Shown here: piece by piece, positions 3,304 through 4,020 of the stretch
How positions within the stretch are numbered: the first letter of the stretch is position 1
Layout: each line of letters opens with the position of its first letter
Assembly (NCBI GenBank): GCA_014383605.1
Contig: JACNHM010000276.1
Span: forward strand, 1-22,007
Reading direction: 5' to 3'
DNA: 22,007 nucleotides
Origin: Chloroflexota bacterium
GTDB taxonomy: Bacteria > Chloroflexota > Anaerolineae > UBA3071
The notes under the pieces: generated by a model
Database searches by the model: none
What the model saw: only the letters and a program-made list of their open reading frames with translations
Told to the model about the DNA's origin: nothing
Program-made: the position numbers and the translations under genes

Positions 3304-4020
3304 TTAGGATGCTTTCGGCTTCCACACCTTCCAAACCTTGCCCACCAGATCAGGGCCTGGCTTGAGGGTGGTCTGGCCTGGTGTCCAACCGGAGGGGGTG
3401 GCCTCGCCCGTCTCCCGCACGTGCTGGAACGCCTGGACTTGGCGGATCAGCTCGTTCGGGTTGCGGCCCACGGGTGGCGTCAGCGTCTCCGCCGCCTGAA
3501 TCACGCCGTCGGGGTCAATCAGGAAACGGCCGCGGATATTCACGCCCGCTGCCTCGTCGTATACGCCGTAGACGGTGCCGATCCTCCCGCCCTGGTCAGA
3601 GAGCATAGGATAGGGAACGCCCCCCTCGATCATCTTGGACAACTCTTCTTCTTGCCAGATCTTGTGGACGAAGACGCTGTCCACGCTCATGGCCAACACC
3701 TCGACGCCCAACGCCTTCAGTTCCGGATACTTGGCGGCAACTGCCGTCAATTCCGTCGGTCAAACGAAGGTGAAGTCACCGGGGTAGAAGCAGAGCGCCA
3801 CCCACTGGCCCCGATAGTCCGATAGCTTGACGTTCTTGTAGCCTCCATCCACGAAGGCATTGGTCTCAAAATCAGGTGCTTCCTTGCCTACACGTGCGAT
3901 CATCTCAGGTACCTCCTTTTCGGTTTTCGGCCCGCCCTCGACGGGGGCGAGCTGCGGTGCCGGCACTAGCGGGCCGGCCACTGGTTGCACGCAAGAGAGT
4001 ATCTTTTCCTTTTGTGCCAT
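3304..4020 (-). CDS. Selenocysteine-containing peroxiredoxin (AhpC/Prx1 type), TGA read as Sec
   Basis: It reduces H2O2 and organic peroxides. The reading frame is intact except for one TGA (3760-3762), placed exactly where the peroxidatic Cys belongs: FYPGDFTFV-TGA-PTEL against the family's FTFVCPTE. Both sides are in the same frame, with no other defect. A SECIS-like hairpin follows (3731-3750). Other Prx1 features: the catalytic Thr two residues before Sec-minus-one (TFVU), the conserved Arg in PVGRN (about residue 186) and a C-terminal PGPDLVGKVW tail. The usual resolving Cys (GEVCPAGW) is Thr208 here (GEATPSGW), so it probably works as a one-Sec enzyme. Two in-frame starts both have strong ribosome sites: ATG 4020 (238 aa, with a 39-residue extension containing Cys10) and ATG 3903 (199 aa, Sec48). 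A caller treating TGA as stop would split the gene into 3760-4020 and about 3304-3750. Confidence 0.88.
3731..3750 (-). promoter_or_regulatory. Candidate bacterial SECIS element
   Basis: On the minus strand, CGGC (3746-3743) pairs with GCCG (3738-3735) around the loop AGTT (3742-3739). The stem extends by TTG (3750-3748) with CAA (3733-3731) across one A/C mismatch. The loop begins 17 nt after the TGA and has G as its second base. That agrees with the known bacterial pattern: small apical loop, an early G, and a spacing of roughly 16-37 nt. The fold was made by eye, not computed. Confidence 0.65.
3898..3918 (-). promoter_or_regulatory. Internal strong ribosome binding site in the peroxiredoxin gene
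   Basis: AAGGAGG lies 8 nt before an in-frame ATG (3901-3903). Starting there gives a standard-length peroxiredoxin. The upstream ATG at 4020 also has a near-perfect site (AGGAGG, 7 nt away), so two protein forms are plausible. Confidence 0.6.

Follow-up and report, generated by a model that had tools for sequence, protein, structure and literature searches.

The prxU locus

The window, by which we mean the whole stretch of 22,007 nucleotides analyzed here, carries a peroxiredoxin gene of the PrxU type with an in-frame TGA codon, which is accompanied on the same strand by genes resembling those for oxidative-stress proteins. The coding region and the neighboring genes that are referred to below are as follows.

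3304..4020, minus strand: prxU coding region, long form of 238 amino acids with predicted selenocysteine (Sec) (translation; PF00578, PF10417, NF040737)
3760..3762, minus strand: in-frame TGA (codon 87), standing for the peroxidatic residue of PxxxTxxU (translation; relatives)
4099..4710, minus strand: rubrerythrin open reading frame (ORF) just upstream of prxU, whose true start may be internal (PF02915, PF21349)
2486..3007, minus strand: DJ-1/PfpI gene downstream of prxU (PF01965; start read from the sequence)
8238..8708, minus strand: Fur-family regulator at the head of the same-strand group (PF01475)

When TGA is read as Sec, the region from 4020 to 3304 is translated into 238 residues with a single TGA (codon 87) in the context YPGDFTFV-U-PTEL and with a TAA stop, while the list of ORFs gives the gene as two same-strand ORFs of 86 and 148 amino acids in one frame. 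An earlier note on this DNA had placed at 3304..4020 a gene with both halves in one frame and its sole in-frame TGA at the peroxidatic residue; all of this was borne out by the translation, and the strand, which had not been given, is minus. The protein matches the profiles PF00578 and PF10417 and has the AhpC-TSA domain and fold. Its score against NF040737, the NCBIfam profile of PrxU, is 380.6 bits and far over the cut-off of 270, but that against the AhpC profile TIGR03137 (188.2 bits) is below the cut-off of 272. Also, the PxxxTxxU motif, as it is given for PrxU in the consulted part of PMC13188914, is present as P80-x3-T84-x2-U87, with the Sec codon inside it. Judged by its sequence, the window gene is an additional member of PrxU, a known family of selenoproteins.

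Upstream on the same strand are the Fur regulator, a second rubrerythrin-domain protein, a flavodiiron-type protein, an HMA protein, a rubredoxin-reductase-like flavoprotein and the rubrerythrin, and DJ-1/PfpI is found downstream. These are likely a group of anaerobic oxidative-stress genes, and such surroundings would fit peroxide defense in an anaerobe. When 92 loci of relatives, each with a scored gene, were searched by tblastn within 3 kb from the TGA, nonetheless, we found Fur at 10, rubrerythrin at 8, flavodiiron protein at 5, rubredoxin reductase at 4, and DJ-1 and the second rubrerythrin at 2 each, with many of the loci cut by contig ends; because the sharing of neighbors is weak, synteny gives little support. 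Just downstream of prxU (3073-3249, minus strand), we also noticed a small Cys-rich ORF of 58 amino acids with CxxC...CC, which weakly matches the TRASH metal-binding domain, below the cut-off.

Conservation of the TGA codon and of the Sec machinery in relatives

Genomes were scanned with the window protein (C for U), and the best 80 of 572 relatives were retained. TGA is at the peroxidatic codon in all of these 80 loci; it was recognized in 78 by the first motif scan, a broader scan added L080, and L010, which reads FTYV-TGA-PTE, is also one of the 80. Since the 80 are the best of 572 relatives, this result covers the near family and not all peroxiredoxins. In a sample of 400 genomes from the phylum of L001's genome, PrxU was over the cut-off in 14 genomes with 16 hits, of which 15 contain TGA and one does not; in a sample of 247 genomes from the phylum of L013's genome, 87 hits (E ≤ 1e-70) were obtained in 78 genomes, with TGA inside 83 of them and absent from four (L142-L145). 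The counts of 15/16 and 83/87 refer to hits with stops inside, a few of which have further stops, and the codon-by-codon reading of them is partial. L111 is a Cys-type copy beside a Sec copy. Among the matches listed, furthermore, 84 aligned rows of metagenome proteins have Trp at the Sec position, which is likely an annotation artifact, namely TGA read by a gene caller with code 4.

The search for Sec machinery covered 50 genomes, those of L001-L049 and L080 among the 80 loci, and 14 controls. SelA was over the cut-off in 45 of the 50 genomes of relatives (controls, 1/14), SelB in 42 (controls, 2/14), and tRNA-Sec in 48 (controls, 5/14). The cut-off for tRNA-Sec is loose, as five of the controls pass it, and yet 48 of the 50 genomes score at least 57 bits. 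Those below the cut-off (eight for SelB, five for SelA and two for tRNA-Sec) are drafts and possibly incomplete. In the window itself, ARAGORN found no tRNA genes. The presence of SelA, SelB and tRNA-Sec in most of the 50 genomes supports Sec at the peroxidatic site, and insertion of Sec in the organism of the window is predicted. When the sigma factor of the window was compared with 17 genomes, the best matches (55-63% identity) were in the twelve whose loci are titled Chloroflexi, Anaerolineae, Aggregatilineales or Dehalococcoidia, with lower identity (44-51%) in G004, G006, G009 and G034 and no match in G044; the window thus probably derives from the phylum of these twelve.

A conserved hairpin after the TGA codon

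In bacterial SECIS (bSECIS) elements, the distance from UGA to the apical loop follows a rule, and the loop features G and U. Downstream of the window TGA, we noticed a candidate for such an element.

3724..3755, minus strand: predicted bSECIS hairpin (fold; conservation of loop and stem against synonymous shuffles)
3746-3743/3738-3735, minus strand: apical stem of the hairpin, with the loop AGUU at 3742-3739 (fold)

The loop AGUU lies 17 nucleotides past the TGA and is closed by CGGC/GCCG, and the whole hairpin is encoded within the codons of PTEL-x-A-V-A. Its folding energy is unremarkable (z 0.40; at least as stable in 126 of 200 shuffles), and no match to Rfam at gathering scores was found anywhere in the window. 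The evidence for the hairpin is comparative. We compared 95 distinct Sec genes, that is, 94 from the loci and the window gene, with 500 runs of synonymous permutation inside each gene. Either AGUU or GGUC forms the loop in 92 of the 95 genes, as opposed to a mean of 12.8 and a maximum of 24 in the shuffles, and the loop together with a stem of four base pairs is found in 81 (shuffles: mean 3.6, maximum 10). The two ends of the loop (21/24) are A-T in 51 genes, G-C in 41 and G-T in three, and the G conserved in the apical loop of the window and its relatives is what is expected of a bacterial selenoprotein. In all 95 genes, an NCA or NCG codon precedes the loop and Val is encoded there by GTT or GTC, whereas GTG is the commonest Val codon elsewhere in the same genes (604 of 1526). 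The loop rule is obeyed in all of 29 later genes, none of which was used to derive it, and loop plus stem reached a mean of 1.1 and a maximum of 5 in the shuffles of these genes. None of six Cys-type loci follows the loop rule, but amino-acid differences of these loci at the same site make them a weaker control. Such a pattern across the genes indicates that the hairpin after the TGA is under selection.

An in-frame stop created by pseudogene formation or by a sequencing error would look alike in a single draft sequence, and this reading was already refuted by the comparative data: given TGA at all 80 retained loci, a sequencing error at the codon is excluded, and together with the loop signature in 92/95 and 29/29 genes, the chance of either origin is negligible. 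The earlier note had likewise held an error or a pseudogene to be improbable and had proposed aligning homologues at this site, which gave the 80 of 80 above. Indeed, its central claim of a selenoprotein peroxiredoxin with TGA at the catalytic position gains support from the conservation of TGA and loop and from SelA, SelB and tRNA-Sec in relatives. Its further claim of a hairpin with a loop 17 nucleotides downstream that fits bSECIS is borne out by the sequence and by the conserved loop. The note did not contain the assignment to the known PrxU family, the loss of the resolving Cys or the second start.

A predicted internal second start

Apart from the start at the head of the gene, a second ribosome-binding site and start sit between an N-terminal tail and the catalytic domain.

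4027..4033, minus strand: Shine-Dalgarno (SD) sequence AGGAGGT of the long start, ATG at 4020-4018 (sequence)
3911..3918, minus strand: internal SD sequence AAGGAGGT (sequence; conserved among relatives)
3901..3903, minus strand: internal start ATG (Met40), giving a predicted short form of 199 amino acids, 3903..3304 (sequence; conserved position)

The position of the internal start is conserved in relatives, mostly four codons ahead of VGxxAPDF. Removal of L090, in which the start of the domain was not recognized, left 94 of the 95 genes, and 83 of them have a tail with Cys; the 11 tail-less genes (L003, L019, L029, both copies of L048, L059, L061, L064, L065, L068 and L071) were set aside by hand. 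In 200 runs of synonymous shuffling on the 83 genes, an internal SD of at least 6 nucleotides, actually present in 69, occurred in 23.6 on average and 32 at most, and one of at least 5 nucleotides, present in 76 and missing in seven, occurred in 40.4 on average and 50 at most. With 72 strictly matched genes, the internal SD is found in 58 (shuffles: mean 20.4, maximum 27), and a comparable SD precedes only 26 of 295 other in-frame ATGs. In the later set, Cys is in the extension of 28 of 29 genes, and all of these 28 have an SD of at least 5 nucleotides and 24 of them one of at least 6. The 76 genes have 67 distinct linker pentapeptides at the internal SD, which falls into a single codon register in most genes (68, against 7 and 1 for the other two registers); a common K/Q-E-V/E peptide adds to the SD, and the synonymous shuffles retain this peptide. 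In L068, one of the tail-less Sec-type genes, the internal ATG is immediately followed by an in-frame TAG, which might reflect a broken gene, a sequencing error or split expression.

These counts suggest that both a long and a short isoform would be made from the window gene. It is conceivable, instead, that this is an ordinary PrxU of which only the long start is used, the internal SD and ATG being leftovers of a short ancestor that give no protein. Family members having only the short form (e.g., L003, L064 and L071) indeed start at the same Met, and an SD of at least 5 nucleotides precedes the long start in 73 of 80 genes, a set that includes the tail-less L059, L065 and L071. A mere leftover, however, would not be expected to exceed the synonymous shuffles as the internal SD does in spite of the differing linker peptides, nor to be preceded by Glu codons biased to GAG (84 of 107, against 532 of 1112 in the domain). 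Also, five Cys-type relatives keep the tail motif without Met here, as read at the level of protein, where GTG or TTG starts are possible. We thus regard exclusive use of the long start as unlikely, albeit not strongly so. Much less probable is the opposite, namely that only the short form is produced, from Met40, with the upstream frame left untranslated. Many metagenome proteins among the matches listed begin at the internal Met, and the 199 residues are near the length of the first PrxU described, which is reportedly 203 amino acids and would fit a short form. Against this, it is the protein sequence of the upstream motif that is conserved, its synonymous codons varying freely, and the reading frame is preserved across linkers of variable length between tail and domain. 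Production of both isoforms therefore remains our preferred reading.

Rearranged Cys residues

The residues that may bear on the resolution of an oxidized Sec are as follows.

3967..3993, minus strand: N-terminal motif C10-V-Q-P-V-A-G-P-L, in which C10 is the tail Cys (translation; motif in relatives)
3790..3792, minus strand: Cys77, ten residues before Sec in LCFYPGDF, typical of the family (relatives)
3397..3399, minus strand: Thr208, in the place of the resolving Cys of AhpC/Prx1 (translation and relatives)

In typical 2-Cys peroxiredoxins of the AhpC/Prx1 type (Prx2, Prx4 and Salmonella AhpC among the structures), the resolving Cys is in a C-terminal V-C-P, but the window protein has Thr208 in A-T-P-S-G-W. 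This canonical Cys is found in only four of the 94 Sec genes, with a shifted Cys in one more (the first copy of L048). By contrast with these four, the Cys at −10 (equivalent to Cys77) is present in 92 of the 94, and the 30 later loci have it in all and the C-terminal Cys in one. The consensus of the tail among relatives is C-V-x-P-A-x-G-P-I, and its V, P, A, G and P each use all four codons across the genes; because of this codon diversity, the tail motif is counted as protein-coding and constrained at the level of protein. Five Cys-type relatives (P0046, P0049, P0052, P0053 and P0064) keep C-V/I-x-P-A-R-G-P-I with a hydrophobic N-terminus and no internal Met. Two Sec-type copies are present at each of the loci L025 and L048; one copy of L048 lacks the −10 Cys and has the C-terminal Cys, and the other has both.

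Co-occurrence of the Cys residues was examined in an alignment of 263 rows, comprising the 94 Sec genes and proteins among the matches listed, with gapped rows excluded. Eight rows have both the −10 and the C-terminal Cys, 200 have the −10 Cys alone, 25 the C-terminal Cys alone, and 30 have neither (Fisher p 2.4e-13, which ignores kinship and repeats and overstates independence because homologues share ancestry). Among the matches listed, the −10 Cys is in 175 of 178 Sec-type rows (TGA or Trp-called) and 31 of 83 Cys-type rows.

With the canonical Cys lost, the tail Cys (Cys10) is likely the resolving thiol of the long form. Seven Sec genes (L003, L019, L029, L059, L061, L064 and L071) have neither the tail nor the C-terminal Cys, however, which indicates that the tail Cys can be dispensed with. 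Cys77 might be the resolving thiol, leaving the tail for docking, targeting or regulation; it is nearly universal in Sec forms, tail-less ones included, and seldom coexists with the C-terminal Cys, as the counts above indicate. At the same time, 28 Cys-type homologues among the matches listed have neither the −10 nor the C-terminal Cys, and Cys77 is in a predicted strand (73-78) and may be buried. We consider a resolving Cys77 to be a serious contender, though less likely than not. AlphaFold models had a mean pLDDT of 91.0 for the long form (87 at residues 11-20) and 94.6 for the short form; pairing of the tail with the strand of the old resolving Cys was considered and dropped, as the bridges at 207 and 219 are also in the short model.

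Comparison with known systems and a possible mechanism

Taken together, we put a probability of roughly 85% on the reading that this is a PrxU-type gene in which TGA is predicted to encode Sec at the peroxidatic position and an internal start likely yields a shorter, tail-less isoform. PrxU was first described from Eubacterium acidaminophilum by Sohling et al. in 2001 (as cited in the consulted parts of PMC13188914, PMC9312934 and PMC8533274), and the consulted parts of two surveys count 12 (PMC1794560) and 43 (PMC1088965) Sec peroxiredoxin genes. Because of this publication and these counts, the main claim of Sec at the peroxidatic site of a peroxiredoxin is right but not new, and the internal start and the rearranged Cys residues are the points worth the attention of specialists. 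The window gene has an N-terminal Cys tail and an internal start, which may set it apart from the protein of 2001. In the part of the PrxU literature surveyed, a second start, an N-terminal Cys and a resolving thiol are not described, which is weak evidence.

Human peroxiredoxin 4 (Prx4) also has an N-terminal extension bearing an extra Cys, but it keeps the canonical resolving Cys, is secreted and has no Sec, while the window protein has Sec and Thr208; an entry of the C51A variant of Prx4 exists among the structures listed. As for the hairpin, the window element resembles the SelB-bound SECIS of the fdhF type in being short, in directly following UGA and in the G and U of its GGUC/AGUU loop, but it is within the codons of PTEL-x-A-V-A and is unmatched in Rfam at gathering scores.

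The sequences themselves show the conservation of TGA and loop, the internal ribosome-binding site, the tail motif, and the loss of the resolving Cys. We infer that Sec is inserted in the organism of the window and that translation begins at both sites, and likewise the parts played by Cys10 and Cys77 and the identity of the reductant. SelB on the AGUU/GGUC hairpin just past the codon would deliver Sec-tRNA to UGA, and Sec87 would then reduce peroxide and be oxidized to a selenenic acid. Since the C-terminal Cys is lost, Sec87 of the long form would be resolved by Cys10 of the tail; Cys77, the sole other Cys left in the short form, could be an alternative partner. Thioredoxin would finally reduce PrxU. 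More tentatively, and with the odds rather against it, prxU across many bacterial phyla might give two selenoenzymes per message, a long one resolved by the tail Cys and a short one from the internal start, with their ratio setting the balance between fast cycling and a sensor with one Sec.

The in-frame stop can be settled as a likely Sec codon, which explains split or mis-translated gene calls. Provided that both the second start and the tail Cys prove genuine, furthermore, a widespread family of bacterial selenoenzymes would have a two-isoform design, with an arrangement of the resolving thiol that we did not find described in the literature surveyed.

Other features of the window

Three further observations were made on the plus strand. 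A UvrD-like helicase of 349 amino acids at 9010-10059 matches only positions 1-172 of the N-terminal profile (length 271) and 246-348 of the C-terminal one (length 350), and its middle seems to be missing. At 12189-14401, Archease adjoins the RNA ligase RtcB, which is a known pairing. Finally, a protein of 652 amino acids at 15372-17330 has many similar repeats of the LKYAYQDASGWHIETVDSEG type and, as judged by eye, is perhaps a secreted, beta-propeller-like protein.
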